Shown here in pieces: positions 1,047 through 31,336 of a stretch of DNA of 36,914 nucleotides. The notes under the pieces are model-generated. The model ran no database searches, had not been told where the DNA came from, and was given only the letters and a program-made list of their open reading frames with translations. Made by a program: the position numbers and the translations under genes. The DNA lies in assembly GCA_903919925.1 (NCBI GenBank), contig CAIXKO010000536.1, positions 1 through 36,914 on the forward strand. Reading direction: 5' to 3'. Within the stretch, counting starts at the first letter, position 1. Each line of letters opens with the position of its first letter. The DNA comes from an uncultured Bacteroidota bacterium. GTDB lineage: Bacteria > Bacteroidota > Bacteroidia > Bacteroidales > UBA12481.

Positions 1047-1052
1047 TTTACG

Positions 1053-11468: not shown

Positions 11469-11685
11469 AATTGCGAATAATCCAATTTATTATACTCTTG
11501 TCCTGAAATGGTTTGGGGCAAGTGTGTTTACTGAATTTCATATACGATAATTCATGATTGTCGGTGACGATTCCGGTCGGAACAGAATACCCTGAATGGG
11601 TCACCATGACGAATCCAACACAATCCGGGCTAAAAATTCGCTTGTCAGCCCAATATTTTTCATTATCCATAGGAGGGAAATTCAA

Positions 11686-13920
11686 ATGCATATAAAACGA
11701 TTTTCATTAATAATCCTGACCATTATTATCAGCGTTTTTCTACATGCGTGTTCTTCAAGTGACAGTCTCATACTTAGCTGCAAATCTGATAACGACTTAT
11801 TTGCCGTCTTACAGGAGAATAAAATTGCCAATCAAAGATTTGATACTCCTCAGGAAGCAGTCAGCAAAGCACCTGAAGGTTCGGGAGTTATGATATTGGC
11901 TGATGAATATCCTTCCACACCTACACAATTGGATCAATCCCTGTTTGATGAAGCCGCAAGGAAAAACTTGCGGCTTTATGTTGAATTTCCTTCCTATTTG
12001 CCGAATTTATCAATAGGAGAATCCAGGGGAACGCATTGGGAAAGGGCTGTAATTTCGTCAGATGCGTTTGGTCCGGAATTGCAAAAATTTAGAATATTGG
12101 CGATCCACGATTGTCGATATGTTACAATGAAAGCTGATAATCCTGATATTGTGATAGCTCGTGTAGCGGGTTTTGATAATGCTGTTTATGGATTACCAAT
12201 GGAAACCGCACCGATCTTGACGAAAATTTCTGAAGGCAAAGAAAATGGGGAATTATTGGTGTCAACAACTAAGCTGAGTCAGTTTATGACAGCTCGCTAC
12301 TCCCCCACAGATGCCTGGAAGTCAATATGGAAGCATATTTTTACGTGGTTGCAGCCCGGCAGAAAAGCACCTGAATTAATATGGACAGCCCATGTACGTC
12401 CAAGTTATGATGCAGAGGAGAGCTTGCCTGAAGATGTTGAGCGGACAGCACTCATACGGGGAATCGATTGGTTTTTTAATTCCAATATGATTCTTCATTC
12501 AAATATGCTGGAACAATACAATAAACCCGCAAATGATGCGAAACCTTCCAGCTCCAATCCCGATCTGACCCAGGATTGGCCTTATGGGCACAGGATTAAT
12601 AAGATGATTAAAGATCCCGGAACCGGAGATGGCACATTGGGAATCATGGAAGGATATGATGCAAAAATATTTTTTGATGGTTCACAATTGGTACGCTGGT
12701 GGAATCGTGGTGATTGTAACGGGGAAATTGCCGGAGCTATGGGGATTGCCGGTATGGGTTTAAAAAATGATAAATATTTACAAACCGCCTCCAATATCGG
12801 AGACTGGCTTTTTTTCCGTTCCATGATGTCGCTGGGTGACCGGGCAAATCCCGACAATCCTGCTTATGGTTTATTTGGCTGGAATGATGCTGCGCAATAT
12901 GTAGGACCTGGTTCAGGTGATGGTTTTGGTGTATACTATGGTGATGATAATGCAAGGGTGGCTCTGGGCATGATGCTTGCTTCAGTTGCACAAAAAACCG
13001 ACCGTTATGACAAGCGATTGCTAAATCTTATTCTGGGCAATTTGCGCATAAGCGGAATCAACGGATTTCTACCTGATCGGATTGACCAGCGTCCTTTAAT
13101 GAAAAAAGGTTGGGAACAATTATTTGCCAATAATAATACTTCGTATTCACCACATTACCAGGCGAATATGTGGGCTTGCTTTCTTTGGGCATATCAACAA
13201 ACGGGATTTGAATTGTTTCTGGAACGTGCAAAAACGGCCATTCGCCTGACCATGGAAGCCTATCCTGATAAATGGGTGTGGACGAACGGGATTCAACAGG
13301 AAAGAGCCAAGATGCTGCTGCCTTTAGCTTGGCTGGTGCGTATTGAAGATACCGCTGAACATCGCGGATGGCTGGAACAGATGGCAGGGGATTTATTGTC
13401 TAAACAAGATATTACAGGCGCTATCCGCGAGGAGATTGGTGAAGCTGGCAAAGGAGGTTGCCCACCGCCAGCTACCAACGAAGCATACGGTTCAGCCGAA
13501 ACTCCATTAATACAGGAAAACGGTGACTGCGCCACTGATCTTCTTTATACTGTGGGATTCGCATTTATCGGTCTGCACGAAGCGGCAGCAGCTACCGGGA
13601 ACCCATTCTATCGCACCGCGGAGGACAAGTTGGCAAAATTTCTCTGCCGGATACAAATTCGCAGTGAAAAACACACCGAATTGGATGGCGGCTGGTTCCG
13701 TGCCTTTGACTTTAAACGTTGGGAATATTGGGCATCCAATGCCGATGCAGGTTGGGGAGCCTGGTCTATTGAGAGCGGCTGGTCACAAAGTTGGATAACA
13801 GCGGTACTAGCCCTGCGACAATTAAATACCTCCTTCTGGGATATTACACGCGACAGCAGGATAGAAGCGCATTTCATGACCTTGCGCGAAGAAATGTTTC
13901 CTGATAATTTGCTAAAATGA
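11686..13920 (+). CDS. Paralog 1 of a five-member locus family: exported lipoprotein, N-terminal GATase1/Rossmann-like domain + C-terminal probable (alpha/alpha) barrel, function unknown
   Basis: The ORF track starts at 11596, but ATG at 11686 has a good SD (AGGAGGGAAATTCAA) and a lipoprotein signal (MHIKRFSLIILTIIISVFLHAC). Shares DNDLF, TTKLSQF, GDGTLGIMEG, RWWNRGDCNGE, ELDGGWFRAFD, GWGAWSIESGWSQSWI with the other four. Confidence 0.85.
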   Translation: MHIKRFSLIILTIIISVFLHACSSSDSLILSCKSDNDLFAVLQENKIANQRFDTPQEAVSKAPEGSGVMILADEYPSTPTQLDQSLFDEAARKNLRLYVEFPSYLPNLSIGESRGTHWERAVISSDAFGPELQKFRILAIHDCRYVTMKADNPDIVIARVAGFDNAVYGLPMETAPILTKISEGKENGELLVSTTKLSQFMTARYSPTDAWKSIWKHIFTWLQPGRKAPELIWTAHVRPSYDAEESLPEDVERTALIRGIDWFFNSNMILHSNMLEQYNKPANDAKPSSSNPDLTQDWPYGHRINKMIKDPGTGDGTLGIMEGYDAKIFFDGSQLVRWWNRGDCNGEIAGAMGIAGMGLKNDKYLQTASNIGDWLFFRSMMSLGDRANPDNPAYGLFGWNDAAQYVGPGSGDGFGVYYGDDNARVALGMMLASVAQKTDRYDKRLLNLILGNLRISGINGFLPDRIDQRPLMKKGWEQLFANNNTSYSPHYQANMWACFLWAYQQTGFELFLERAKTAIRLTMEAYPDKWVWTNGIQQERAKMLLPLAWLVRIEDTAEHRGWLEQMAGDLLSKQDITGAIREEIGEAGKGGCPPPATNEAYGSAETPLIQENGDCATDLLYTVGFAFIGLHEAAAATGNPFYRTAEDKLAKFLCRIQIRSEKHTELDGGWFRAFDFKRWEYWASNADAGWGAWSIESGWSQSWITAVLALRQLNTSFWDITRDSRIEAHFMTLREEMFPDNLLK

Positions 13921-16154
13921 AAACACGACAAATCTCACTGCTGAAAATATCAGAATACTTTTTTTTAGTGCTTTTACTGGTTTCTTTTCTATCATGTACC
14001 AATACCAAACAGAACAACATCAGCCTGAGTTGTAAAGAGGACAATGACCTGTATCTCACATTACTTGAAAATAAAATCAGCTGTTCAAGGTTTAATACGC
14101 CCGAAGAAGCTATTAAAAGTGCTTCTGACGGTGGAGGAGTAATGATATTGGCGGATGGTTATCCCGGGATAACCACACAGATGGATGACGCGCTGTTTAA
14201 AAAAGCACGTGATAAAAAACTCAGGCTATATGTCGAATATCCATCCTATTTGCCAGGTATAAATGTTGGAGAACCCACGGGAACGCATTGGGAGCGTGCT
14301 GTGATTGCTTCCGGGGCATTTACTCCAAAATTGCAGAAACTTCGCATTCTGGCCATTCATGATTGTCGTTATGTGCCTGTCAATATTGAGAATCCTGATA
14401 TAGTAATTGCGCGGGTGGCTGGATTCGATAACGCCGTTTATGGCTTGCCAAAGGAAACTTTCCCTATCCTGGGCGAAATTCCTCAGTCTGAGAATAGCGG
14501 AAGCCTAATGGTATCCACTACCAAACTGAGTCAGTTCATCACCGGGCGTTACGCTCCGGCTGGTGCCTGGCCAGCGGTATGGAAGTACGTTCTCACATGG
14601 CTTCAACAGGACAGGAAAATTGAGGACCTAAAATGGACACCTGATGTGCGTCCAAGTTTTAGCGCTAATGAAGCTTTGCCGGCTGATGCAGAGAACAAGA
14701 CCCTGGAACGTGGAATAAGATGGTATTTCAATTCCGGGATGATAGTGAGTGATCAGTTATCGGCAAAATACAATCTGCCGTCAAACGGACCCGAACCTGC
14801 ATCAGCAAATCCTGATACGACAAAAGATTGGCCGTTTGGTCATCGGATTGGACTGAAACCTGATCCAAATACCCCGGTCGGTGATGGGAAATTGGGGGTA
14901 ATGGAGGGCTTCGATGCGAAAATATTTTCATCCGGCGACCAACCGGTCAGGTGGTGGAGGAGGAATGATTGCAACGGGGAAGCAGCCGGTGCGATTTCCC
15001 TGGCTGGCCTCGCTTTGGGAAATCCTGATTATGTGAAAATTGGCGGCAACATCGGTGATTGGCTCTATTTCACTTCGCCGATGTCGCTGGGTGACCGATC
15101 AAATCCGGATCATCCGGCTTATGGCCTGGTTGGGTGGAATGATGTGCCTGAATACACAGGTCAAAAATCAATGAACGGTTATGAGGTTTATTATGATGAT
15201 GATAATGCCAGAACCGGTTTGGGTATCATCTTATCAGCCGCGATTCAGAAAACAGACCGGTATGATGTGAGATTGTCTCAGAATCTGCTGGGGTTAATGA
15301 GAATTACGGGCAAACAGGGTTTTTTGCCTGACCGGATCAACCAACCCTCTTTGGTTCAAAAAGGATGGAAAAGCTATTTTAATGATACGGTTACAAATTA
15401 TTCCCCCGGGATGCAATCTTATGTATGGGCTTATTACCTGTGGGCATACAATCAAACCGGATATGATTTGTTTTTGAAACGAACAAAGAATGCAATAACG
15501 GAAACGATGAGAACATTTCCTTCCCATGATATTTGGAATAAGAGTAATCGATCAAGAATGCTGCTGCCACTGGCCTGGTTAATCAAAATAGAAGATACGC
15601 CCGAACATCGTAAGTGGCTGCGCGACATGGCAGAAAGTCTGTATCAGGAACCCAACGGTGCCATTAGCGATGAAATGAGAAGCGGAGCATGGGCATCACC
15701 GCCAAAGTCGAACGAGGAATATGGGACCAATGAGGCAGTTCTGTTGCAAACCAGGGATGATTTAGTGGGGGATATTTTATATACGATGAATTTCGCCTTT
15801 GTGGGATTGCACGAAGCGGCAATGGTAACGGGAGAAAGTTACTATAAAGAGTTGGAAGATAAATTGGCAGGGTTTTTATGCCGGATACAAATCAGCAGCG
15901 AAAAGCACCCCGAATTGGATGGTGGTTGGTTTAGGGCATTTGACCTGAAGAATTGGGAATATTGGGCTTCAAACACTGATGCAGGTTGGGGAGCCTGGTG
16001 TATTGAGAGTGGCTGGTCGCAAAGTTGGATTACAATCGTATTTGCCCTGCGGAAAATCAATAGTTCCCTCTGGGGTTGTACCCTGGATAGCAAGATTAAG
16101 GAACCATTCGATCCTATACGCCGACAAATGATACCTGATGATTCTCTGAAATGA
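13917..16154 (+). CDS. Paralog 2 of the five-member family, exported lipoprotein, function unknown
   Basis: Overlaps paralog 1 by ATGA; lipobox FLSC; DNDLY, TTKLSQF, GDGKLGVMEG, RWWRRNDCNGE, ELDGGWFRAFD, GWGAWCIESGWSQSWI. Confidence 0.85.
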   Translation: MKTRQISLLKISEYFFLVLLLVSFLSCTNTKQNNISLSCKEDNDLYLTLLENKISCSRFNTPEEAIKSASDGGGVMILADGYPGITTQMDDALFKKARDKKLRLYVEYPSYLPGINVGEPTGTHWERAVIASGAFTPKLQKLRILAIHDCRYVPVNIENPDIVIARVAGFDNAVYGLPKETFPILGEIPQSENSGSLMVSTTKLSQFITGRYAPAGAWPAVWKYVLTWLQQDRKIEDLKWTPDVRPSFSANEALPADAENKTLERGIRWYFNSGMIVSDQLSAKYNLPSNGPEPASANPDTTKDWPFGHRIGLKPDPNTPVGDGKLGVMEGFDAKIFSSGDQPVRWWRRNDCNGEAAGAISLAGLALGNPDYVKIGGNIGDWLYFTSPMSLGDRSNPDHPAYGLVGWNDVPEYTGQKSMNGYEVYYDDDNARTGLGIILSAAIQKTDRYDVRLSQNLLGLMRITGKQGFLPDRINQPSLVQKGWKSYFNDTVTNYSPGMQSYVWAYYLWAYNQTGYDLFLKRTKNAITETMRTFPSHDIWNKSNRSRMLLPLAWLIKIEDTPEHRKWLRDMAESLYQEPNGAISDEMRSGAWASPPKSNEEYGTNEAVLLQTRDDLVGDILYTMNFAFVGLHEAAMVTGESYYKELEDKLAGFLCRIQISSEKHPELDGGWFRAFDLKNWEYWASNTDAGWGAWCIESGWSQSWITIVFALRKINSSLWGCTLDSKIKEPFDPIRRQMIPDDSLK

Positions 16155-18412
16155 AATACTTGCTTAATATGAAAACATATCTAAAATCCTGGTCGAACAT
16201 ACTTGTTTTTTTTTCTTTAACGTTTTTATTGGGTGTTGCTCAATCATGTACCAATAATTACCGGAACAAAATAATCCTCAGTTGCAAAGAGGATAACGAT
16301 CTGTACAGGACGTTGGTTGAAAACAAGATCGAATGTATTAGGTATAACACACCGGAAGAAGCAATAAGCCATGCCGTTAAAGGCGCCGGTATACTGATAC
16401 TGGCTGATGGCTATCCGAATCAAACAACAGTATTGGAGGCTTCCCTGTTTGAGAAAGCAAGCAGTAAAAAACTGAGGCTTTATGTCGAATACCCATCTTA
16501 TTTGCCAGGAATTGAAATTGGTAAACCAAGAGGAACGCATTGGGAACGAGCTGTGATATCTTCCGAAGTATTTGCCCCGGCTTTACAAAAACATCGCATC
16601 CTGGCCATTCATGATTGTCGTTTTGTACCGGTAAAGGTCGAAAACCCTGATATTGTTATGGGGCGGGTGGCTGGTTTCGATGTTGCAGTCTTTGGTTTGC
16701 CAAAAGAGGTTTTTCCAATCCTTTTTGAAATGCCCAAGCAAAATGGCAACGGAGATTTATTAGTCTCTACAACCAAACTTAGCCAGTTTATAACTGCCCG
16801 CTATGCCCCATTGGATGCCTGGAAATCAATATGGGAAAGTGTTTTCAAATGGCTCCAGCCGGATAGTAAACCGCTTGACATTAACTGGACCCCCAGTGTA
16901 CGTCCCAGTTTCAGTGCAGATGAACAACTTCCGGCAGATGTTGAAAAGCAAGCCTTGAAACGTGGAATTGACTGGTACTTCAATTCTGGAATGATTCTGA
17001 GTCCGTCGATGCTGGGAAAATACAACCAACCTGCAAATCTTCCGGACGCATCGAGAGCTGACCCTGATCTTACCCAGGATTGGCCGTATGGCCACCGCAT
17101 TGCATTGAAGCCCGGTTTGGATTCCGCCGGAGGAGATGGGACACTGGGAGTTATGGAGGGTTTTGATGCAAAAATCTTTGCTGATGGAACACAACCGGCG
17201 CGATGGTGGAATAGAGGTGATTGCAATGGGGAAACGGCAGGAGCAATGTCGGTTGCTGGTGTTGCCATGCAAAATTCCAACTATCAGAAAGTTGGAGGGA
17301 ACATCGGAGATTGGCTTTATTTCAAGTCCATGATTTCGTTGGGAGACCGGGCTAATCCACATCATCCGGCTTACGGGCTTATGGGGTGGACAGATGTGCC
17401 TCAATATTGTGGTCCCGGCACGATGAACTGTTATGAAGTATATTACGGTGATGACCAGGCAAGAAATATGTTAGGGATTATGCTTGCAGCCGCAACTCTG
17501 AAGACAGACCGATACGATGAGCGGATGTTGAAAGGATTACTTGCAAATCTTCGTATAACCGGGCAGTCGGGATTTCAGCCTGATCGTATTGACCAGGGTC
17601 CCCTGGTGCAAAACGGATGGAAATACTATCATAAATTGAACAGTATTAATTACTCTGGTAATTTTCAAGCTTATATGTGGGCATGTTATCTATGGGCATA
17701 TCAGCAAACCGGCTATGATCTGTTTCTAAAGCAGGCAAAGGCCGGTATCAATACCATGATGGAAGGTTATCCTCATCAATGGGGAGTTACCGGCATGCAA
17801 ATGGACAGGGCCAGGATGGTTTTGCCTTTAGCCTGGTTGGTGAGGGTTGAGGACATACCCGGGCACCGTTCATGGTTACGCATGGTGGTGGATGATATGA
17901 CTCAGGATTCCATCACCGGAACCATTCCCGAAAGAATAGAGGCGGAGGTAAGCAACTACGGCAAGGGACATTATAAATCACCCAAGTCAAACGAAGAGTA
18001 TGGTACAGCCGAATCCACCATCATACAAAACGATGGAGACCCTTGTTGTGACCTTTTATATGCGGTCAATTTTGCATTTATTGGACTGCACGAAGCCGCT
18101 GCAGCTACAGGGGAAAAATACTATCGTGAAGCGGAGGACAAGCTGGCAAAATTCCTTTGCCGCATACAAATCCGTAGTGAAAAACATCCGGAATTAGATG
18201 GAGGATGGTTTCGTGCTTTCGATTTCAATCGTTGGGAATATTGGGCTTCCAGCACCGATGTTGGCTGGGGGGCCTGGTGTATTGAAAGTGGATGGTCACA
18301 AAGCTGGATCACAATGGTACTGGGTCTTCGCCAGTTAAACACTTCCTTTTGGGAAATTACCGGTAATAGTAAGATAAAAAATAACTTCGACCGTCTGGTC
18401 AAACAATTTTAG
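16151..18412 (+). CDS. Paralog 3 of the five-member family, exported lipoprotein, function unknown (alternative start 16169)
   Basis: Overlaps paralog 2 by ATGA; lipobox AQSC; DNDLY, TTKLSQF, GDGTLGVMEG, RWWNRGDCNGE, ELDGGWFRAFD, GWGAWCIESGWSQSWI. Confidence 0.85.
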   Translation: MKYLLNMKTYLKSWSNILVFFSLTFLLGVAQSCTNNYRNKIILSCKEDNDLYRTLVENKIECIRYNTPEEAISHAVKGAGILILADGYPNQTTVLEASLFEKASSKKLRLYVEYPSYLPGIEIGKPRGTHWERAVISSEVFAPALQKHRILAIHDCRFVPVKVENPDIVMGRVAGFDVAVFGLPKEVFPILFEMPKQNGNGDLLVSTTKLSQFITARYAPLDAWKSIWESVFKWLQPDSKPLDINWTPSVRPSFSADEQLPADVEKQALKRGIDWYFNSGMILSPSMLGKYNQPANLPDASRADPDLTQDWPYGHRIALKPGLDSAGGDGTLGVMEGFDAKIFADGTQPARWWNRGDCNGETAGAMSVAGVAMQNSNYQKVGGNIGDWLYFKSMISLGDRANPHHPAYGLMGWTDVPQYCGPGTMNCYEVYYGDDQARNMLGIMLAAATLKTDRYDERMLKGLLANLRITGQSGFQPDRIDQGPLVQNGWKYYHKLNSINYSGNFQAYMWACYLWAYQQTGYDLFLKQAKAGINTMMEGYPHQWGVTGMQMDRARMVLPLAWLVRVEDIPGHRSWLRMVVDDMTQDSITGTIPERIEAEVSNYGKGHYKSPKSNEEYGTAESTIIQNDGDPCCDLLYAVNFAFIGLHEAAAATGEKYYREAEDKLAKFLCRIQIRSEKHPELDGGWFRAFDFNRWEYWASSTDVGWGAWCIESGWSQSWITMVLGLRQLNTSFWEITGNSKIKNNFDRLVKQF

Positions 18413-18535
18413 CCTGATTGAACCTGATGATAATTATTTAGAGGATGGGAACCTTTGGCAAATTGCTTAATATGAATTATTTGAGAGACTAGAATCCGTA
18501 TGAAAACCAGCTGATAATCCGGTTATTCCTGGCCT

Positions 18536-20383
18536 ATGAAATGGAATCAAATAGACTTCTGGATTGTAATGGGCTATCTGGTACTAATGTGCAGCATGTC
18601 ACTATTGCACAGGCGCTTCGCTTCAGCCAATCTGGAAAACTTCTTTTTGGGCGGAAGGAAAATACCCGGTTGGCTGAATGGCATATCGTATACTGCTGCG
18701 CTCGTCAGTCCGGATGCCGCCACGGGGTATGGCGGTCTGGCAATAGTTACCGGAGCTTTTATTTCCTGGTGGTACCTGAGCCGCTTCGGGTTGGCGCTTT
18801 TTATAGGAGGAGTACTATTTGCCGTATTTTGGAGGCGGTTGAACCTCTTCACAACCCTGGAATTTTATGATCTGCGTTTCCCCAAACGTGCGGCCAGTGC
18901 CATGAGGCTATGGATTGCAATTCGTACCTCACTGATCGCCTTGCCTGCCTGGACCGGGATCACCTTGCTGGCTGCCTATAAAATCATGGGCCCTGCTTTC
19001 GGATTGACAAAATCAGAGACAATGTATCTGATCGTGCCAATATCTTTACTCTTTGTATTCATCTCGGGATACAGGGGAGTGGTGATTTCAAACCTGATAC
19101 AGATGATCCTTTTCTTTATAGGTACCATAACCCTGGCAGGGTTTACTCTGGCTCATTTTGGAGGACCTGAAGCCATGACTGCAACACTAAGCCATGCTTT
19201 TGGCAACTCTCACCCTGAATTGCTGCAAATGACACCGCCGTCCAATCATGATATATTTCCGTTGGCGGCAGCAATGGCCTGGCTGTTTGGCCAAAGTATC
19301 GGTTACGGCGGAGACGCAGCCCCGATGGGAGGTGCTATGGAAGGTCAGCGTATTTTATCGACCCGAACTCCCCGTGAAGCATTAACCATGTATGTGGTAA
19401 CAGCCATAAGCATGTTTGTGCTATTGTTGCTGGTTACTTTACCAAGCATTTCGGCAGCTGCGCTATATCCTGATTTGCGTGAGGCGGGAGCTGACCGGGA
19501 ACTGGTGTATGGCAGATTGATGAAGACTATGTTGCCGGCAGGTGCAATAGGTTTATTGGTGGCAGCTATGATGGCTGCCGCTATGTCGACTGTTAGCGAC
19601 AATCTGAACTTTGGAAGCCAGGTGCTGGTAAGCGATATCTACCGGCGATGGTTTGTAACAAAAGCCAGCGAAAAGCACTACCTGCTGATGGGAAAAGCCA
19701 GTATGGTTCTTATTATTTCACTGGCGATTATTGTAGTATTCAATGTCAGGATCATTACTGATGTAGCTATATTCATGCTGCAGCTCAGTGCCGCTGAATT
19801 ACCGGCAAACTGGGCACAGTGGTGGTGGTGGCGATTTAACGGGAAGGCCCGGATAGCTGCCTCATTTGGTGGTGCTCTAATCTTCAGCATTATTGTGCTC
19901 GGCCCTAAACTGTTGTTATACTTTGACATTTCATGGGCGCAAAAGCTGATATTTCCATGGTGGTGGCAGGCATTATTAGTGATGGGGCTAACCACCCTGC
20001 TGTGGTTTTCAGTTGCCCTGTTGACAAAACCCGATCCCGACAGATTATTGAATGATTTCTATCACAGAGTTCGCCCTTTAGGATTTTGGAAGCCATATCG
20101 ATTAAGACATATTCCTTTGCCAAAAACCAGGACTAGCCCGATATTCAGAGGATTAGCCATAGCTGTTATTGGTTTCTCGGCAACTTGCCTATTAATTCTG
20201 GGCCTTACAGAATTGTGGTTCGGGCGGTATTGGATGTGTTTAACAGAACTTTTTCCCTCTGCCGGTTTATTTATTGTGTTTAAAAAAATGTCAAAGTCTT
20301 TCCTTGAATACCTTGCTTCCCGTAAGGAAAATGATGAAACTCCACACCAAAATCATACAGTAAAATTGCCAGTAAAAAATTAA
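18536..20383 (+). CDS. SSS-family sodium:solute symporter (SGLT/PutP type)
   Basis: Many TM segments; ENFFLGGRKIPGWLNGISYTAALVSPDAATGYGGLA, AAMMAAAMSTVSDNLNFGSQVLVSDIYRR and WAQWWWWRFNGKARIAASFGG typical of Bacteroidetes SSS sugar symporters. Confidence 0.92.
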   Translation: MKWNQIDFWIVMGYLVLMCSMSLLHRRFASANLENFFLGGRKIPGWLNGISYTAALVSPDAATGYGGLAIVTGAFISWWYLSRFGLALFIGGVLFAVFWRRLNLFTTLEFYDLRFPKRAASAMRLWIAIRTSLIALPAWTGITLLAAYKIMGPAFGLTKSETMYLIVPISLLFVFISGYRGVVISNLIQMILFFIGTITLAGFTLAHFGGPEAMTATLSHAFGNSHPELLQMTPPSNHDIFPLAAAMAWLFGQSIGYGGDAAPMGGAMEGQRILSTRTPREALTMYVVTAISMFVLLLLVTLPSISAAALYPDLREAGADRELVYGRLMKTMLPAGAIGLLVAAMMAAAMSTVSDNLNFGSQVLVSDIYRRWFVTKASEKHYLLMGKASMVLIISLAIIVVFNVRIITDVAIFMLQLSAAELPANWAQWWWWRFNGKARIAASFGGALIFSIIVLGPKLLLYFDISWAQKLIFPWWWQALLVMGLTTLLWFSVALLTKPDPDRLLNDFYHRVRPLGFWKPYRLRHIPLPKTRTSPIFRGLAIAVIGFSATCLLILGLTELWFGRYWMCLTELFPSAGLFIVFKKMSKSFLEYLASRKENDETPHQNHTVKLPVKN

Positions 20384-20399
20384 TTAATAGGATATTATC

Positions 20400-21683
20400 A
20401 TGAAAAGAATGGAACGTCTTACTTTTCTGAAAAGTGCAGCCGCTGTTTCGGCTTTTACAATTTTAAAACCGGTTACCGCCTTTGGTACCCGGGCTAACTC
20501 TGCCATCCGGGTGGGGATTATCGGCTGTGGAGGAAGAGGAACAGCCGTTCTATCTTCCATGTCGCAAAATACTGATATCGCTATTATTGCAATGGCGGAT
20601 CTTTTTGATGACAAGCTGCAGAATGCTCATCCCATTTTTAATAAACTTAATACCACAAAAGGATTACCTGAAGTACCCAAGACGAATATCCATCAGGGAT
20701 CAAAAGCTTATCTGCCGTTGCTGAACAACAAGGATGTGGATGCAGTCCTGATCTCCTCTCCTTGTTATTCTCATCCCGGATACATTGATGCCGCGCTTGC
20801 TGCCGGGAAACACGTTTATTCTGAAAAGCCGGTCGCAGTTGATGTTGCTGGTTGTGAGCAGGTAGTAAGACTGGGTGAAATGGTTAAAGGGAAACTGAGT
20901 CTGGCTATCGGGTTTCAGATCCGGTTTGCCTCGGCATATGTCGAAATGGTAAGAAGAATACACCAGGGCGATTTAGGTGAGATGATTAATGCTCAATTGT
21001 ATTATTTTTCGGGTGGCGTTCCCCATAAACCTTATCAAAATGTATCTTACGATGAGGCGCGGATCAGGAATCAATATCATTTTCATGCCTTGTCGGGAGG
21101 TATTTTGCTCGACCAGGGAATCCATATCCTTGATGTCTGCAACTGGGCTTTGCAGGCTCACCCGGTAAAAGCAACCGGCAGTGGTGGTAAAAGGGCAGGA
21201 GTCGATTTTGGAGATGCCTGGACCAATTATCAGGTATTGTATGAATATCCTGATCAGGTGAATGTCAGCTTTCATGGTACCCAGTTTGGCACCCAATCCG
21301 GAGGAGTTTGTGCCAGGTTTATCGGTACAAAAGGCATCGCTGAGGCCCATTACAGTGGCGGAGTTTTTATTCAGGGTGAAAAACCATGGGATTCGGGTAT
21401 TGCCAGGTGCAAGGATGCTGAACTGACAGCTGAGCAAAGAGCTGCAGGTATTTTCCTGTCTTCGCTTCATGATGCGGATACCAATAAGGATTTCGCTTTT
21501 ATAAAAAGCATTGAAACTGGAAATTTTATCAATGAGGCGCGTTCCGGAGCAGAATCAACTCTCTCCGCTATATTAGGCCGGACCGCTGCAGCCGCTGGTG
21601 AAGAAATTACCTGGGATGAAATGATTCTTTCCAATGCCAGGCTGGATCCCATGTTAAACCTTTCTCAATTTGATAAAAAATAA
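20400..21683 (+). CDS. Gfo/Idh/MocA-family NAD(P)-dependent oxidoreductase with N-terminal signal-like region
   Basis: Rossmann motif IRVGIIGCGGRGTAVL; DAVLISSPCYSHPGYIDAALAAGKHVYSEKPVAVD; LLDQGIHILDVCNWAL. N-terminus MKRMERLTFLKSAAAVSAFTILKPVTAFG resembles a degenerate Tat signal. Confidence 0.93.
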   Translation: MKRMERLTFLKSAAAVSAFTILKPVTAFGTRANSAIRVGIIGCGGRGTAVLSSMSQNTDIAIIAMADLFDDKLQNAHPIFNKLNTTKGLPEVPKTNIHQGSKAYLPLLNNKDVDAVLISSPCYSHPGYIDAALAAGKHVYSEKPVAVDVAGCEQVVRLGEMVKGKLSLAIGFQIRFASAYVEMVRRIHQGDLGEMINAQLYYFSGGVPHKPYQNVSYDEARIRNQYHFHALSGGILLDQGIHILDVCNWALQAHPVKATGSGGKRAGVDFGDAWTNYQVLYEYPDQVNVSFHGTQFGTQSGGVCARFIGTKGIAEAHYSGGVFIQGEKPWDSGIARCKDAELTAEQRAAGIFLSSLHDADTNKDFAFIKSIETGNFINEARSGAESTLSAILGRTAAAAGEEITWDEMILSNARLDPMLNLSQFDKK

Positions 21684-21700
21684 GAAATTCTATCGAAAGC

Positions 21701-22621: not shown

Positions 22622-22694
22622 TCTGTCCAATTAAACGTGCCATGTCACAACTTCCATAAGTCTTAACAATCACTTCATCAAAATAAAAACAATT

Positions 22695-23507
22695 ATGAGA
22701 GCAAAAAAGGAGTTCAGGAGTAAAGATGAGCATGTACTTTATGTTGGCGACTGGGTATTTCATCTTGGCCCCATGTTTATTGAAACGCCTTTTGGATCAG
22801 AAACCAAGGATGCCGATCTTCATTTCTACGGAGAGCGCCTGACAGAAGCCCTGGAACACCTGGTCGATGTTACCCCCCTGGCTAATTGGGAACTTTATCG
22901 GCTTGAACCGGGCAAACTTGAAGAATTTCTCAAACAGTCGGTTTGTTTGATTATCAGCGATGTTGAAGCTAAATGTTTCCATTTGTATCCCGGGTTTTTT
23001 GACAGGGCCAGGAGAGAAAACCGAGTGGTTACATTCCCTGACAGGCTTAATGTGATAAAGGAATGGATCAATAATGGAGGGGGGCTGATGATGCTGGGAG
23101 GATGGCTATCCTTTAGCGGAGTGCAGGCCAGAGCCGGATGGGGAAGAAGCTCCTTTTCAAATGTTTTGCCTGTTGAATGCCTCTTAACAGAAGATTTAGT
23201 GGAATCATCAGAGGGTTTTACTGCCGAAGTATTAATGCCTGATCATCCTGTCGTAAAAGGATTACCATGGCATAAATTCCCTCCAATATTCGGGTACAAT
23301 GAGGTTAAAGAAAAACCTGATGGGCTGGTGTTGGTTCGCGTAAAAGAAACCGGCCACCCATTGGTAGTAGCCGGCAGTTACGGGAAAGGCCGTATCTTAA
23401 CCTATATGTCAGATCCTGCGCCTCATTGGGGAATAAACTTTGAACTGTGGGACGGCTATGATGCTTTTTGGCAACAATCTTTAATGTGGGTAACCCATAA
23501 AATATGA
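22695..23507 (+). CDS. Putative glutamine amidotransferase-like protein (GATase1_like/ThuA-like)
   Basis: VCLIISDVEAKCFHLYPGF..., IKEWINNGGGLMMLGGWLSFSG, HPVVKGLPWHKFPPIFGYNEV, GHPLVVAGSYGKGRILTYMSDPAPHWG; no Cys at the usual nucleophile elbow. Confidence 0.78.
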   Translation: MRAKKEFRSKDEHVLYVGDWVFHLGPMFIETPFGSETKDADLHFYGERLTEALEHLVDVTPLANWELYRLEPGKLEEFLKQSVCLIISDVEAKCFHLYPGFFDRARRENRVVTFPDRLNVIKEWINNGGGLMMLGGWLSFSGVQARAGWGRSSFSNVLPVECLLTEDLVESSEGFTAEVLMPDHPVVKGLPWHKFPPIFGYNEVKEKPDGLVLVRVKETGHPLVVAGSYGKGRILTYMSDPAPHWGINFELWDGYDAFWQQSLMWVTHKI

Positions 23508-24718
23508 AGGAATCAACATTAATGGCCGGAACTTCGGTTGCAGATATCACACCGCCTCTGGAAGTTGGCCTGCTGACTTCAGCGGTAAAGGGGTTATACG
23601 CTCCGTTTGAATCTGTCAGGCTGCCATTAAAAGCCAGGGTTTTAGTATTAAAATCCGGAAATGAGCTGGTAGCTGTAGTTACGCTGGATCTTTTATCATT
23701 AAATGATACATCAGTGGGCGGTTGGGAAACTTTTAAACAGGAAGTCTCTGATGTTATCCCTGCTGAAAGAATCATTATTTGCTGCACCCATACACATACC
23801 GCTCCGGAATCGGCTGCCCTGACCGGATTATATTTAACCAAGCCCTATCAGATCTGGCTGACGCAGGTTCAGCTGAGAATCAAGGAAGCTATTAACGAGG
23901 CAATCCGTACAGTCAGGTATTGTTCTCTCTCAGTCTCTATCTCCAACCTGGAAGGTTTTTCCATGCAGCGCCGGATAAAAACACCTTCAGGGATTGTCCT
24001 GTCTGATTCTGTCCAACCGATTGCTACGGACATATTAAATCTTCCACCGGTAGATCGCCGGGTCGTCTCTCTTCATTTTCATGACACCAATGGGATTGGG
24101 ATTGCTGTTGTTGTGCATGCAGTATGTCATGCGGTGCATGAAATGTGTATGCCGCATGTATCTTCTGAATTTCCGGGCGAAATGTGCAAAGAATTAGAAA
24201 TGTCCTCTAAAAACGGTATGGCAATGTTTTTAAATGGTGCTGCCGGTGATACCAATCCGCCGACAGTTTCTATGGGGCCTGAATATTCGCGCCGGCATGG
24301 ACTTGCCTTAGCCTATTTAGCTCGAAAAGCGGAAAACCAATATCAAGTTGAAAGTTCTCTTTTTTCATTTGCGAAAAGGAATGTTCAAATGTCAATAAGA
24401 TCCGAATCGAATGTGACCAATGAACTTGATGCGATGGCAAGGCTAAATGCCATACGGATTGGCTCATTGGCGATTCTGTTTCTACCCGGAGAGCCTTTTG
24501 TTGAAATTGCTTTGGAAATAGAAGAAGCTTCCCCGTTTGAGCATACGATTGTGGTTGGTTATAGTGAAAACAATATAGGCTATATTCCTACTGAAGAAGC
24601 ATTTATCCAGGGGGGGTATGAAATCGGTCCGGGCAAATGGTCCTGTTTGGAGAAGGGGGCGGATAAAGTAATCTATGCCAATGCCTTACAATTATTAGAA
24701 GAGCTTTACAATAATTAA
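23504..24718 (+). CDS. Neutral/alkaline ceramidase-like (N-terminal domain family) metal-dependent hydrolase, no signal peptide seen
   Basis: AGTSVADITPPLEVG, IIICCTHTHTAPES (candidate zinc motif), MAMFLNGAAGDTNPP, LFLPGEPFVEIALEI, VVGYSENNIGYIPTEEAFIQGGYE. ATGA overlap with the upstream gene. Confidence 0.85.
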   Translation: MKESTLMAGTSVADITPPLEVGLLTSAVKGLYAPFESVRLPLKARVLVLKSGNELVAVVTLDLLSLNDTSVGGWETFKQEVSDVIPAERIIICCTHTHTAPESAALTGLYLTKPYQIWLTQVQLRIKEAINEAIRTVRYCSLSVSISNLEGFSMQRRIKTPSGIVLSDSVQPIATDILNLPPVDRRVVSLHFHDTNGIGIAVVVHAVCHAVHEMCMPHVSSEFPGEMCKELEMSSKNGMAMFLNGAAGDTNPPTVSMGPEYSRRHGLALAYLARKAENQYQVESSLFSFAKRNVQMSIRSESNVTNELDAMARLNAIRIGSLAILFLPGEPFVEIALEIEEASPFEHTIVVGYSENNIGYIPTEEAFIQGGYEIGPGKWSCLEKGADKVIYANALQLLEELYNN

Positions 24719-24799
24719 ATCGTGACTAGCCTTACCGAAAATTAAGTGATATCGAAAAGTTGGACAGGTAGGGAAATTGAACTAAAAACCCAATTAAAA

Positions 24800-27034
24800 A
24801 TGAAAAACTGGTCTGGTTTCCAAATCATCATTGCCGGGATACTGCTTTGGGCAGGATTATCAAGTTTCCCCTTAAATGTAAAGGATAATGCTACAGCCTC
24901 AGCAAAAGTAGCATTAACCAGTAAGGGAAACAGCCTTATTCTTAGCTGCAGAGCCGACAATGATCTCTATCAGGTTTTGGTTGCAAATCGTATAAGATGC
25001 AAACGTTACAGCAGCCCTTCAGAAGCTGTGGACAGGGCATCCGCGGGTGGAGCCGTGATGATCCTTGCTGATGAGTACCCCGCAAAAACCACCACCCTTG
25101 ATACATCCCTTTACGAAAAGGCAGCTAAAAAGAAGTTGAAATTATATGTTGAATATCCTTCGTTTCTGCCGGGTTTAGCAGTCCAGCCGCCTCGTCCCAC
25201 ATCCCTGGAGCGCGTGGTGGTTTCTACCGGTGAAATTGAAAATCTGACCCTCATGCAGATATTGTGTCTGCATGATTGCAATTATATTCCGGTTTCAGTA
25301 GAAAATCCTCTATTGACAGTAAGTAAGGTTGCCGGATTCGACCGTGCTGTTTATGGTTTGGATAAAGACGCACATACCAGCGCCATCCTATTCGAACAAC
25401 TTCCCGGCAGATTGCTGGTATCGACTACTAAACTCAGCCAATTCGTTACAGCAAGATATGCGCCGAAAGATGCCATGCAGGCCATATGGGCATATGTCCT
25501 GCAATGGCTGGGGGTAGATAAAGCTTCGGCTCAAAATCTTGAATGGACACCTGCTGTTCGACCAACCTATACAAGGGAACAATCGCTTCCCCCGGATGCT
25601 GCCCGTTTAGCCGTTCAGCGAGGAATAGATTGGCATACAAAGGCCAAAATGCTGCTTAACGACGAGGGGTGGGAGGAATATAAACAGTTTTGGAAGCTGA
25701 ATGATTCGAATATACTGACTACGGTAGAAGCGATAATTAATTCAGCTCCTCAGCCCAAAAGCCAGGTTGGTGACGGAACTTATGGAGTATTGGAAGGGAT
25801 TGTTTCCCAGGTAAACCAGGATGGCAGTCAACCTACCCGCTGGTGGCTTCGAACAGATTCGAACGGAGAAAGCTCCCTGGCTTTTGCCCTCAGGTGGGCA
25901 ATGGATGGTGATGAAAGAAGCAGGCAGGTAGCCGGAAATTTGCTGGACTGGGTTTATCAGCGTTCCGGATTGTTCCAAAATGATCCGAAAAAAGCAAATT
26001 ACGGTTTGCTTTTCTGGGCACCGGGAAATGCACAGGCGCTTTATCAGGATAATGACATAAAGACGATTCTCGGTTGCATGGGGACAGCTGGGTTAATGAA
26101 TACCGATCGTTGGGACGAAGTGCTTGTTAAAAATATATTGGGAAACTTCAGGACAACGGGTGCGAATGGATTCCGGGGCCAGCGAATAGAAAACCCTGAA
26201 TTACTTCGTGATGGATGGCAGAAATATTGGAACAGAAATAAAATCCAGCTGCAGCCTCATTATGAAGCCTGGACATGGGCTTCCTATTTATGGCTGTATG
26301 ATAAAACCCAATGGAAGCCGCTGTTGGAAAAAACAGCAAAAGGGGTGAATATGATGATGAAGGCGTATCCCAGGGATTGGCGATGGACCAATGGAATCCA
26401 GCAGGAACGAGGCCGTATGCTGCTTGCTTTGGCATGGCTGATCAGGGTGGATGACCGACCCGAATATCGGGCATGGCTAAAACAACTAGCCAATGATATT
26501 GAAAAATGCCAGGATATTTCCGGAGCGATCCGGGAAGAGCTTGGGGCTCTTGATCACGGAGACATGGCGCCTCCAACCTCAAATGCTGCTTACGGCACCG
26601 GTGAAGCCCCCTTGATTCAGGAGAACGGAGACAGTGTGTCCGACCTTTTATATACTTGTAATTTTACCTTCTTAGGGCTTCACGAGGCCTATGCAGCAAC
26701 AGGCGATGAGCAGTACAAGATTATGGAGGACAGGCTTGCAGATTTTCTTATCCGTATCCAGGTAGGAAGTGAAAAACACAGCGAGTTGGATGGTGGCTGG
26801 TTCCGTGCCTTCGATTACCGGCAATGGGAGTATTGGGGGTCAAATGCCGACGCCGGATGGGGAGCCTGGTCAATAGAAGCGGGGTGGACCCAGGCATGGC
26901 TACCTACCGTTCTTGCCATGCGGGAGTTGAATAAAAATCTTTGGGACATAACCAGCAAAAGTAAGGTGGAAAAACACTTTGATAGTATTCGCAGGCAAAT
27001 GATACCAGATGAAGTACTAAAGAACGTGAAATAA
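24800..27034 (+). CDS. Paralog 4 of the five-member family, exported but apparently not a lipoprotein, function unknown
   Basis: The ORF track begins at a GTG (24746), but ATG 24800 gives a clean signal peptide MKNWSGFQIIIAGILLWAGLSS without a lipobox Cys. DNDLY, TTKLSQF, GDGTYGVLEG, RWWLRTDSNGE, ELDGGWFRAFD, GWGAWSIEAGWTQAWL. Confidence 0.82.
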   Translation: MKNWSGFQIIIAGILLWAGLSSFPLNVKDNATASAKVALTSKGNSLILSCRADNDLYQVLVANRIRCKRYSSPSEAVDRASAGGAVMILADEYPAKTTTLDTSLYEKAAKKKLKLYVEYPSFLPGLAVQPPRPTSLERVVVSTGEIENLTLMQILCLHDCNYIPVSVENPLLTVSKVAGFDRAVYGLDKDAHTSAILFEQLPGRLLVSTTKLSQFVTARYAPKDAMQAIWAYVLQWLGVDKASAQNLEWTPAVRPTYTREQSLPPDAARLAVQRGIDWHTKAKMLLNDEGWEEYKQFWKLNDSNILTTVEAIINSAPQPKSQVGDGTYGVLEGIVSQVNQDGSQPTRWWLRTDSNGESSLAFALRWAMDGDERSRQVAGNLLDWVYQRSGLFQNDPKKANYGLLFWAPGNAQALYQDNDIKTILGCMGTAGLMNTDRWDEVLVKNILGNFRTTGANGFRGQRIENPELLRDGWQKYWNRNKIQLQPHYEAWTWASYLWLYDKTQWKPLLEKTAKGVNMMMKAYPRDWRWTNGIQQERGRMLLALAWLIRVDDRPEYRAWLKQLANDIEKCQDISGAIREELGALDHGDMAPPTSNAAYGTGEAPLIQENGDSVSDLLYTCNFTFLGLHEAYAATGDEQYKIMEDRLADFLIRIQVGSEKHSELDGGWFRAFDYRQWEYWGSNADAGWGAWSIEAGWTQAWLPTVLAMRELNKNLWDITSKSKVEKHFDSIRRQMIPDEVLKNVK

Positions 27035-27046
27035 AATTAAAAGAAC

Positions 27047-29152
27047 ATGAATCAGAAAATGGTCAGAAGGTTATTATGTAAATTGAAATGTTTTTTTATT
27101 GTAATGGGATTATTTTCTCCGTGCATTGCACAAGAGACTTACATTGGTAAATATTGCGAAGGAGAAGGTGATGGGGAATATTTGCGCCTGATAGATGAGT
27201 CCTTTGCTTTTTTTCATCCTAATCCGATAGTGCCCAACCTTTCTATGCTCTATCAAACTGAATGGAATACTTTCGTAGAAGGCACTGAATGGCGCGGCTG
27301 GTGGATACAAAACAGTTATGGATTCTCGTATGCTGTTACCCCATTTCTCCAGGAGCCATGGTTCTCTACTCTTCAACGGTCGTGGGATCTTTTTTGGAAT
27401 AAACAGGGGAATGGGAAGGAAATGGCTTTATGGGGAGGTAGCCCCACAGCAAATGGAATAATGTCATCCATGGTTGCACCTGATGGTTGTTTGGGCGATT
27501 GTGCAAGACCAGGAGAGATTGTTTATAAGCAAGGAGATGGGGATTTGAATAAGCACGACTGGTTTTATGAAGCCACTGCTGCAGGTGTTGTCATGCAGGC
27601 AGAGATCTTATTGGCCGGGCGCAATGGAAAGGCATTAGCCTATTATCTCCCGAAAATGGCGCGGGCTTGTGATTTTATTGAAAAGGTTCGCGACCCCAAA
27701 AACAATCTCTTTCTTGTGGGACCAGCTTGTAATCTTATTGCGCCTTCTTATGGAGGAGTTAAACAAGATGATGGCTCCTTTGGAAAGGGCTATTTGGCAG
27801 GGCTTTCTATTACCTATCTTGCAGCCCTTGATAGAATGGTTGAGCTTTACAAACTATTTGGAGACCAGGAAAAGCTTGCTGAATATAAACGCCGGCAAAA
27901 TAACACCCGAGAATCATTATCTCAGCTGCTGACTCCTGCCGGCTATTTTGTAAAATCTCTGGAACCGGATGGAACCAAGCATGGTGTTCTGGGGCAGAAA
28001 CAATATGGATACCTTGAAGGTGTAGCTAATGCAGATGCTGTAGCGATGAGGGTTGTTGATAATGAAACTGCTGAAAGCATTTACAAACAGATTGCGGAAT
28101 ATCCGGGCATCCGGCCCTTCGATTTTCTCTTAACCAATGCTCCCGGCTTAGACGATACATATTATGGTTGGGGCAGAACCACCGGTGAGGGATTGGAGGG
28201 GATTAATCAATTCGGAGACTGGGTTAACGGAGGTGTATGGGGTACGGTTGAAGGCAGAGCCATTCTGATGTATGCGCGGTTGGGAAAATTTGAAGATATA
28301 CGCAAGTCGGCCATTCGGGCCATGAAGTGGGCAAAGGATTTCCGTATGGATGCACCTTTTTCCCAACGTGGTGAAAATACCGATAATTCCTGGTTTGACG
28401 CCGGTAAGTGGCTCCATGGCGATGGTGTTAAGATTATGATTGACAACTTTGCGATTCCTGCAGCTACAATAAGAGGTTTATTCGATTATGAATATCTATC
28501 AGATTGTCTTGTTCTCCGTCCGCGTGTCCCGGGCTCAATTACCAGATACAAACAAAAGGACGCCGTACGATTCGGCGAGAAAAAAATTTATCTTACCTGC
28601 CTTAATGGAGGACCAAAAGTCAAGTCTGCTACCATCAATGGTAAAGCGATTAATATCAAATCTCCCGATGCCCTGCTGCTATTTTATGATCAGCTGCCAC
28701 AAGAAGCATATATAGAAATTATTACCTATGGTGGCTGGCCGCAAGAATATAAAGCGGCAGTATCTTACCCTCTTATTCCAGCTCTTGTCCCGAACAAAAA
28801 TCAAAAATTATCGGAATCTGCAGAATTAGTGGATTCATTGAAAAAACCGTATGCCATCCTAAATAAGATGCACAAAGCTCTGATTAAAAAGAGACAAGCG
28901 GAATACGAACAGGCTTTCGTTTCATCAATTATCGAAACATTTGAGGCTTATAGAGTTCGTGCAGCTATGGAGGTTCTTCCCGGTTATTATCGACCTGGAA
29001 ACGATGAAAATATTCTAAAATTTTACGCACTTAGATCCATAGCATTATATGACAATTATGAGAAGCGAATGGTTGATTATGCAGAAAAAGGAGATCCAAA
29101 TCAAAAACAGATAGCGATGCTCTTTTTAGAGGCTAAGAATAGTAAAAGGTAA
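27047..29152 (+). CDS. Exported (alpha/alpha)6-barrel glycosidase-like protein (six-hairpin/alpha-L-rhamnosidase-like) with C-terminal helical extension
   Basis: Signal peptide CFFIVMGLFSPCIAQ; EWRGWWIQNSYGFSYAVTPFL, KHDWFYEATAAGVVMQAEILLAGRNGKALAYYLPKM, KGYLAGLSITYLAALDRMVELYKLFGD; beta-sandwich-like C-terminal part LRPRVPGSITRYKQKDAVRFGEKKIYLTCLNGG. Confidence 0.65.
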   Translation: MNQKMVRRLLCKLKCFFIVMGLFSPCIAQETYIGKYCEGEGDGEYLRLIDESFAFFHPNPIVPNLSMLYQTEWNTFVEGTEWRGWWIQNSYGFSYAVTPFLQEPWFSTLQRSWDLFWNKQGNGKEMALWGGSPTANGIMSSMVAPDGCLGDCARPGEIVYKQGDGDLNKHDWFYEATAAGVVMQAEILLAGRNGKALAYYLPKMARACDFIEKVRDPKNNLFLVGPACNLIAPSYGGVKQDDGSFGKGYLAGLSITYLAALDRMVELYKLFGDQEKLAEYKRRQNNTRESLSQLLTPAGYFVKSLEPDGTKHGVLGQKQYGYLEGVANADAVAMRVVDNETAESIYKQIAEYPGIRPFDFLLTNAPGLDDTYYGWGRTTGEGLEGINQFGDWVNGGVWGTVEGRAILMYARLGKFEDIRKSAIRAMKWAKDFRMDAPFSQRGENTDNSWFDAGKWLHGDGVKIMIDNFAIPAATIRGLFDYEYLSDCLVLRPRVPGSITRYKQKDAVRFGEKKIYLTCLNGGPKVKSATINGKAINIKSPDALLLFYDQLPQEAYIEIITYGGWPQEYKAAVSYPLIPALVPNKNQKLSESAELVDSLKKPYAILNKMHKALIKKRQAEYEQAFVSSIIETFEAYRVRAAMEVLPGYYRPGNDENILKFYALRSIALYDNYEKRMVDYAEKGDPNQKQIAMLFLEAKNSKR

Positions 29153-29170
29153 AACCGGGGTAACACAACT

Positions 29171-31336
29171 ATGAAAAAAGAAGAAATGCGCTATGCAGCA
29201 AATGTTCTTGCTTTTGCTGTTTTTTTAGCATTTTCATCCTGTCAGCAGTCGGGCAAATTGGTAAATAGTTATCAAATAAATCTTTGTTGCGCTTCTGATA
29301 ATGACTTGTATAGGGTTCTTATCGAAAATAAGATTACCTGTACCCGGTATAACAACACTACAGAAGCCTTAACAAACCTGAAGAACAGTTCAGGGCTGTT
29401 AATTTTAGCGGATCAATATCCTGTTGAGCGTACACCGGTGGATGCCTCACTATTTGCTCTGGCAGCAAAGAAAAATATTCGGATTTACGTTGAATTTCCA
29501 GAAATGGTACCCGAACTGGAATTAGGTGAAGAGGTGTGTTTGTCAACCGGATATTATGGTGCTGTAACAGACCGCGCGGTTGTCAGCTCTGATTTTTTTG
29601 GAAAGGCACTGCCTATACTGAGTATCCTGGAAATGAAAGGTTGTCACTATATACCCGTAGAGGTTAAAAATCCGGATATCGTGCTTGCACGGGTAGAAGG
29701 ATACAATTCTGCCGTTTATGGCTTGCCAGAGAAGATACATCCGATACTGTTTGAGCTTCCGGGGAAAAATATTTTAGTTGCTACCACCAAGCTCAGTCAA
29801 TTTTTAGCAGGACGTTACATGCCAAATGATGCCTGGCCTTTCGTAATTGGATCCTTGATAAGGTGGACCACCCGTGAAGATTCATTTCCATTGCTCAAAT
29901 GGAATCCAACTGTCAGGCCAATGTATGGTGAAACCCAAAAACTACCAAAGGATGCCCAAAGAACAGCTATCAACCGGGGTATTGATTACTATGGGAAATC
30001 GGGGTTATACCTTAATCCGGACTGGCCGAAACAACCATTTCCCGGAAATGATTCATTACCAAGATCATGGATGCAGGGTGATGGTTCTTATGGTATCGGG
30101 GAATGCTATATATCAAAAATGATATTCTCCAACGGACGACAAGCGGTCAGCCGTGAAGCACGAGCCGATTGCAATCTTGAGGCGGTTATGGGATTAGCCT
30201 GTGGAGTAGCGTTATTCAAAGACACCTCTCACCTGGACAAAATAAAAAAGATGAGTGATTTTGTGTTTCGCAATTCGATACTTGCACAGGGCAACCGTGC
30301 CAATCCGGAAAAATCATCTTACGGCCTTTTAGGTTGGAGTTTATCAAATCCGGAATCCTACTGGGGGGATGACAATGCCCGAGCATTATTGAGTGCGATA
30401 ACTACTTCAGGATTAACTTCCTATAAAAATTGGGATGAATATATTGTCAGAGGAATTCTCGCAAATTTCAGGACTAGTGGAATCAACGGATTCCGACCAT
30501 CAAATGTGAACGGGAAGGTCCTGGAGGAAAAGGGTTGGGAACATTTTTTCAATTCAGATATAGTTTTTTTAAATCCGCACATGGAGGCTTATCTGTGGAA
30601 CACCTATTTATGGCTGTACAATAAAACCGGTTATAAACCATTACTGGATCGAACAAAAATTGGCTTTGAAAAGATGATGAAAGCCTATCCCGACTGGGTG
30701 CTGGAGGCTAACCGGTACGAGCAGGAGCGTTGCAGGATGTTGCTGCCATTGGCCTGGCTGGTTCGGGTGGAGGATACGCCGCAACATCGTTCATGGCTGG
30801 ATACGATTGCACAATATGTGATAAAAATTCAGGATAAAACAGGGGCAATACCTCAAATTCCGAATAGGACTGTTTCATCAAATGAAAACTACGGAACCGG
30901 GGAATGTGCTTTGAGTCATCAGGCAGGAGACCCTGTAACGGATGCCCTCTATTCTATCAATTTTGCTTTTATCGGAATGCATGAAGCCGCAGCCGCTACT
31001 GGAAACCGGGCTTATGCCAGATCAGCGGCAAAGATGGCGGATTTCTTTATTCGTACTCAAACACAAAGCCAAAGTCATATGGAATTAGACGGGACCTGGT
31101 ACAGAGGATTTGACTATGTGAAGTGGGACTACTGGGGATCCGACGGTGATTGGGGCTGGGGGGTGTGGACCAATGAAATTGGGTGGACCCATAGTTGGAT
31201 AACTACGACTCTGACATTGCGCGAAATGAAAACCTCTCTTTGGGATATTGCATCAAAAGTGGATGTGAGTCCATGGTTTGAGCTTTATCGAAAAATGATG
31301 TTGCCGGATAATAAAAACCAATTAGATATACCATGA
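29171..31336 (+). CDS. Paralog 5 of the five-member family (most divergent), exported lipoprotein, function unknown
   Basis: Lipobox FSSC; DNDLY, TTKLSQF, GDGSYGIGEC, ARADCNLE, ELDGTWYRGFD, GWGVWTNEIGWTHSWI. Confidence 0.82.
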   Translation: MKKEEMRYAANVLAFAVFLAFSSCQQSGKLVNSYQINLCCASDNDLYRVLIENKITCTRYNNTTEALTNLKNSSGLLILADQYPVERTPVDASLFALAAKKNIRIYVEFPEMVPELELGEEVCLSTGYYGAVTDRAVVSSDFFGKALPILSILEMKGCHYIPVEVKNPDIVLARVEGYNSAVYGLPEKIHPILFELPGKNILVATTKLSQFLAGRYMPNDAWPFVIGSLIRWTTREDSFPLLKWNPTVRPMYGETQKLPKDAQRTAINRGIDYYGKSGLYLNPDWPKQPFPGNDSLPRSWMQGDGSYGIGECYISKMIFSNGRQAVSREARADCNLEAVMGLACGVALFKDTSHLDKIKKMSDFVFRNSILAQGNRANPEKSSYGLLGWSLSNPESYWGDDNARALLSAITTSGLTSYKNWDEYIVRGILANFRTSGINGFRPSNVNGKVLEEKGWEHFFNSDIVFLNPHMEAYLWNTYLWLYNKTGYKPLLDRTKIGFEKMMKAYPDWVLEANRYEQERCRMLLPLAWLVRVEDTPQHRSWLDTIAQYVIKIQDKTGAIPQIPNRTVSSNENYGTGECALSHQAGDPVTDALYSINFAFIGMHEAAAATGNRAYARSAAKMADFFIRTQTQSQSHMELDGTWYRGFDYVKWDYWGSDGDWGWGVWTNEIGWTHSWITTTLTLREMKTSLWDIASKVDVSPWFELYRKMMLPDNKNQLDIP

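Follow-up and report, generated by a model that had tools for sequence, protein, structure and literature searches.

The window, that is, the whole 36,914-nucleotide stretch of DNA analysed here, contains five ORFs of one protein family, confirmed on the plus strand over a span of 11596–31336. FecR, SusC and SusD genes lie directly upstream, consistent with the first-pass annotation, which had placed the ORFs in a SusCD locus. The two-part layout it described for the five ORFs is also present, and the copies are co-directional and similar over their whole length. The features of the locus are as follows.

4968..6023, + strand: FecR-type anti-sigma factor
6163..9615, + strand: SusC-type TonB-dependent receptor
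9642..11405, + strand: SusD-like lipoprotein, SusC partner (from translation and position; SusD homologs occur in related loci)
11596..13920, + strand: family copy 1 (FAM1), lipoprotein, 774 aa; N-domain 11758–12405, (alpha/alpha)6 barrel 12406–13917; sister to L001 and L003
12649..12726, + strand: copy 1 codons for the invariant residues E298, R317, D319 and E323, which cap inner helix 1
13537..13773, + strand: copy 1 codons for the invariant residues D594, E608, R648, D663 and E672 and for a Trp-rich loop; region capping inner helices 5 and 6
13917..16154, + strand: family copy 2 (FAM2), lipoprotein, 745 aa; H466 to G, E515 to N; sister to L008
16151..18412, + strand: family copy 3 (FAM3), lipoprotein, 753 aa; H466 to N, E515 to D; sister to L009
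18536..20383, + strand: sodium:solute symporter (SSS); 66–70% identity to symporters adjoining family genes in L192, L194 and L195
22695..23507, + strand: GATase1_like protein (PF07090); 72–78% identity to neighbours in L192, L194 and L195
23504..24718, + strand: ceramidase-like amidohydrolase; 45–59% identity to neighbours in L192, L194 and L195
24746..27034, + strand: family copy 4 (FAM4), exported, 762 aa, GTG start
29171..31336, + strand: family copy 5 (FAM5), lipoprotein, 721 aa
34867..36258, + strand: sugar-porter MFS transporter; same-family transporters lie near family genes elsewhere

Copies 2–5 share 57, 61, 47 and 42% identity with copy 1, respectively (814-column alignment; shared stretch ~720 aa), and the mean column identity across all five is 62%, which excludes a chance likeness. 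Stop and start codons overlap at 13917/13920, 16151/16154 and 31333/31336, supporting a single operon. A lipobox-like Cys follows the signal sequence in copies 1, 2, 3 and 5; copy 4 carries what looks like a signal sequence, but no such Cys follows it. In copy 1, an internal ATG at 11686, the start chosen at first pass, yields a better signal peptide than the start at 11596. A sixth, incomplete copy lies on a separate small contig of the same genome. TTKLSQF is the same in all five copies, as annotated, and the other motifs quoted with it hold as consensus forms, not literally in every copy (copy 5 reads GMHEAAAATG and LVATTKLSQF).

Next to family genes in L192, L194 and L195 stand homologs of the window's SSS, GATase1-like and ceramidase-like genes, again as a group (45–78% identity), and L195 has GH20 and MurQ as well. 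Copy 4 lies directly 3' of the GATase1-like and ceramidase-like genes, and family genes in L192 and L194 are placed alike. Transporters of the same family as the window's MFS protein adjoin or stand near family genes in L030, L043, L045, L072, L073, L162, L185 and L186. PADLOC defence models gave no match.

Family status and predicted fold

None of the five copies reached a family in Pfam or NCBIfam, and a profile built from 79 family members matched no PDB chain at E values up to 1. A strong full-length match to a characterised family was thus found in none of Pfam, NCBIfam and the PDB sequences. Literature searches aimed at an already described family, at GH154 models and at glycosidases releasing N-acetylmannosamine (ManNAc) gave no match. 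By sequence comparison, the family is undescribed as far as Pfam, NCBIfam and PDB sequences reach, within a known superfamily. Homologs come from more than a dozen phyla (taxa taken from entry titles), including Bacteroidota, Verrucomicrobiota, Planctomycetota, Lentisphaerota, Armatimonadota, Acidobacteriota, Kiritimatiellota and Spirochaetota. The family is nevertheless sparse: apart from the window's own genome, matches occur in 2 of 296 evenly drawn Bacteroidota genomes and in 7 of 98 relatives. Other loci examined carry one or two copies each, making five exceptional.

An AlphaFold2 model from the 79-row alignment (pLDDT 95.3, pTM 0.94) places a Rossmann/GATase1-like domain at the N-terminus and an (alpha/alpha)6 barrel at the C-terminus. 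Foldseek searches of the PDB returned AGE (N-acylglucosamine 2-epimerase) epimerases first (E 3e-7, TM ~0.6 on target), followed by GH88, GH76, GH9 and terpene cyclases, all of them (alpha/alpha) barrels; a viral fold library gave nothing useful. The model and these matches bear out the toroid suggested at first pass. Profile comparison of the barrel scored 76% for GH127 (205 columns), 18% for AGE and 1% for GH88, on a scale where the GH127–AGE pair, a known superfamily link, scores 96%.

The resemblance to AGE epimerases, GH127 and GH88 is at superfamily level only, and membership in any of the three was rejected at the Pfam level. GH127/DUF1680 beta-L-arabinofuranosidases (PF07944) share the (alpha/alpha)6 barrel and give the best profile–profile link. 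However, only copy 4 matches PF07944, and weakly (E 0.07; 12.5 bits against a cut-off of 24.9). GH127 enzymes use a Cys nucleophile and a Cys/Glu zinc site, which lack a counterpart in the family: the best-conserved barrel Cys is C320 (80%), with all others at 68% or below. The family proteins also differ from GH127 in carrying the extra N-domain. AGE superfamily epimerases (PF07221) are the top structural matches and are often encoded next door, but identity is 9–13%, PF07221 is not matched and H466 is lost in two copies; the family proteins, moreover, are exported and have the additional domain. The GH88/GH105 unsaturated uronyl hydrolases share the barrel (Foldseek match 3wiw, E 1e-4) but differ in that the family does not match PF07470. 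No relation was seen to solved GH154/uronate dehydratases, of which 8OI4 is the structure named in the GH154 paper (PMC12269599), as judged by the 79-sequence profile against PDB chains.

Modelled alone, the N-domain reached a pLDDT of 94.3. Its best Foldseek match was the N-terminal domain of NDST1, followed by class I glutamine amidotransferases (Pdx2, ADC synthase and GMP synthetase), the latter weak (E 3e-3 to 8e-3, TM 0.34–0.44). The NDST1 domain is Rossmann-like and non-catalytic, and has been compared with a proposed carbohydrate-binding domain of Agd3 (PMC10864358). NDST1 and Agd3 likewise carry such a domain on a glycan enzyme, but TM values are low (0.54–0.56 on query) and their catalytic domains are unrelated to the family barrel. 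Class I amidotransferases depend on the Cys of a Cys–His–Glu triad, whereas no N-domain Cys is conserved at 90% or above in the 79 sequences (best C8, 87%, and C119, 80%). We therefore rejected a working amidotransferase domain: the model favours the GATase1/Rossmann-like fold proposed at first pass, with a weak likeness to the amidotransferase fold proper, and amidotransferase chemistry is ruled out.

Conserved pocket and ancestry of the five copies

Across the 79 sequences, 15 charged barrel positions carry the same residue in every sequence or in all but one (mature numbering, residue 1 being codon 11758 of copy 1). Six long helices, tentatively assigned to the inner ring by the sequence in which they follow one another in the DSSP string, start near residues 318, 395, 469, 512, 595 and 673. 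Of 22 conserved charged residues, 9 lie at the N-termini of these helices where 2.9 would be expected (p 0.0003), and no such enrichment is seen for the outer helices. All five copies retain E298, R317, D319, E323, R430, E581, D594, E608, R648, D663 and E672. The Trp-rich loop within 13537..13773 reads ELDGGWFRAFD..WEYW.S..D.GWG.W..E.GW. The charged cluster at the inner-helix caps is thus intact in every copy, supporting the conserved acidic pocket expected at first pass. Secondary structure and conservation point to candidate catalytic residues, and the C-terminal barrel is the likely catalytic domain.

Two positions vary among the copies. H466 and H607, each conserved at 94%, are candidate counterparts of the two catalytic His of AGE epimerases, but H466 is G in copy 2 and N in copy 3. 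Copies 2 and 3, together with their sisters in L008 and L009, differ at positions 466 and 515.

In the family tree, copy 1 is placed beside L001/L003, copy 2 beside L008 and copy 3 beside L009 (Proteiniphilum acetatigenes). Copy 4 groups with five other Bacteroidota. Copy 5 joins proteins of Planctomycetota, Lentisphaerota and Verrucomicrobiota, in a clade otherwise drawn from those phyla. Approximately unbiased (AU) tests rejected trees in which all five copies form one clade (p 1e-35) or the first three do (p 4e-6). Tree and tests together reject local duplication as the source of the five copies. Because the copies group with different outside lineages, the locus must have brought together, or retained, members of much older divergence. 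These separate ancient lineages, together with the substitutions at pocket positions 466 and 515 in copies 2 and 3, lend support to the earlier suggestion that each copy acts on a different linkage, a putative division of labour.

Gene context and proposed function

We analysed the neighbours of family genes in other genomes. An RnBP-type AGE gene lies on the same strand, at most eight ORFs away, in 9 of 84 loci from four phyla (Planctomycetota, Kiritimatiellota, Verrucomicrobiota and Bacteroidota); a tenth label, in L008, was a doubtful 23% match and was left out of the count. In L045, L072 and L162 the family gene, AGE and an MFS gene are contiguous, and L009 carries AGE, SusCD, GH20, MurQ and a BadF-type kinase. 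The nine AGE loci and the content of L009 gave rise to the idea of an amino-sugar substrate.

Fourteen further loci were fetched after this idea had formed. AGE occurs in four of them (L190, L191, L193 and L196), and AGE, NagA/NagB, MurQ or GH20 in seven. L190 and L191 also carry NagA and a NagB-like gene, L197 has NagB, L184 a kinase–MurQ fusion, and L195 both GH20 and MurQ. Among those tested, two AGE proteins (L162 and L190) exceed the NCBIfam equivalog cut-off; NagA in L190 and NagB in L163 and L197 exceed curated cut-offs, and L009, L184 and L195 reach the MurQ subfamily model. GH20 is found in L005, L007, L009, L036, L040, L041 and L195. As a control, AGE lies within 12 kb of 1 of 70 GH127 genes in 13 genomes related to the window's own, whose taxa differ from those of the family loci. 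The difference (4/14 versus 1/70) gives a Fisher p of 0.002, with L190 and L191 being close relatives and not independent. This context points to N-acetylated amino sugars and leaves the uronic-acid substrates suggested at first pass unsupported.

The window itself encodes none of AGE, NagA/B, MurQ or GH20, nor any other amino-sugar catabolic gene. An AGE gene is present in the same genome on another contig (C806). A true MurQ is absent from the genome, making MurNAc an unlikely end product in this organism.

Our best explanation, which we put at slightly less than an even chance as a whole, is that the five paralogs are exo-glycosidases of a new (alpha/alpha)6 family, exported and for the most part anchored by lipid. 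The barrel, its opening edged by invariant Asp, Glu, Arg and Trp, would free an N-acetylated amino sugar (ManNAc, GlcNAc or MurNAc-type) from oligosaccharides imported via SusCD. The N-domain probably extends the substrate cleft or fixes quaternary structure. The freed sugar would be taken up by an MFS or SSS transporter and passed to AGE, NagA/NagB or MurQ, and the five copies may divide among them the linkages, or neighbours, of a single complex glycan.

Glycoside hydrolases acting on neutral plant or algal glycans rich in fucose, rhamnose or galactose, beside which the amino-sugar genes would be incidental, are an unlikely but serious alternative. Beyond Bacteroidota, most family loci have different genes nearby (Gfo/Idh oxidoreductases, GH95, ThuA and sulfatases), and GH95, alpha-L-fucosidase and GH141-like genes do occur; the window adds a GH2 and a GH32/43-like gene, and its genome 15 GH127 matches. 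Such neighbours are heterogeneous, however, whereas the amino-sugar genes turn up again in several phyla and in the loci fetched later.

We consider it rather doubtful that the proteins are non-hydrolytic modifiers of glycan ends (epimerases, isomerases or dehydratases), like AGE or the former GH154 enzymes. Since GH154 has been reinterpreted as a family of dehydratases (PMC12269599), barrel enzymes from loci of this kind are not necessarily hydrolases; AGE epimerases are the closest folds, and H466 and H607 are well conserved. Yet copies 2 and 3 lack H466, no AGE model or PDB chain is matched by sequence, and GH88, the usual partner of such dehydratases, falls outside the 25 commonest immediate-neighbour families. 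Lipoproteins of SusCD loci are sometimes binding proteins, and the N-domain resembles a proposed carbohydrate-binding domain, but non-enzymatic surface glycan binders or degenerate paralogs are very improbable given the intact acid/Arg cluster in all five copies and the presence of the family in phyla that do not use SusCD.

Within the amino-sugar exo-glycosidase reading, a more specific and speculative version, which we regard as improbable, is a new glycoside hydrolase family releasing ManNAc or another uncommon N-acetylated amino sugar. Release of such a sugar would explain why AGE and a sugar transporter repeatedly accompany the family, in neighbourhoods where no sialic acid lyase was noticed in passing, and the window would then encode five enzymes directed at one such glycan. 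The word N-acetylmannosaminidase occurred in none of the open-access papers searched.

If the amino-sugar exo-glycosidase reading is right, it would add a widespread, unannotated enzyme family with an unusual fused domain to the (alpha/alpha)6 superfamily of glycan enzymes. The gene context provides a directly testable substrate class, and five deeply separated members in one locus form a natural set for studying how the pocket may determine specificity.

Genes upstream of the family locus and the source genome

Window 438-2096: gene pair, TusA/DsrE-type first and SelD-like (AIR synthase family) second
Window 2130-4682: 850 aa protein

The TusA/DsrE-type and SelD-like pair lies a short way upstream of the family locus and looks to have no relation to it. 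The 850 aa protein had no match in a Pfam search; distant homologs are present in two family loci (L006 and L048). The source assembly comprises 7.0 Mb in 916 contigs, with a contamination estimate of 5.4%, and contains 15 GH127 matches.

An exported protein with a weak GH94-like match

Window 27047-29152: exported protein, 701 aa, weak GH94-like candidate

Nothing in Pfam exceeded the cut-off for this protein, and its match to GH94-like sequences is weak (E 0.04). Family genes have close homologs of it as neighbours in two loci, L003 and L005 (two copies).

Neighbours of family genes in other genomes

URO-D family genes lie near family genes in seven loci (L001, L003, L007, L027, L033, L050 and L052). 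In L161, L196 and L197, SusD is separated from the family gene by small lipoproteins with a motif resembling SYWIDIDxRxNNGRGYW, in 1-3 tandem copies.

L184 6191-7909, - strand: ROK-like kinase and MurQ, apparent fusion

This apparent fusion directly adjoins a family gene.
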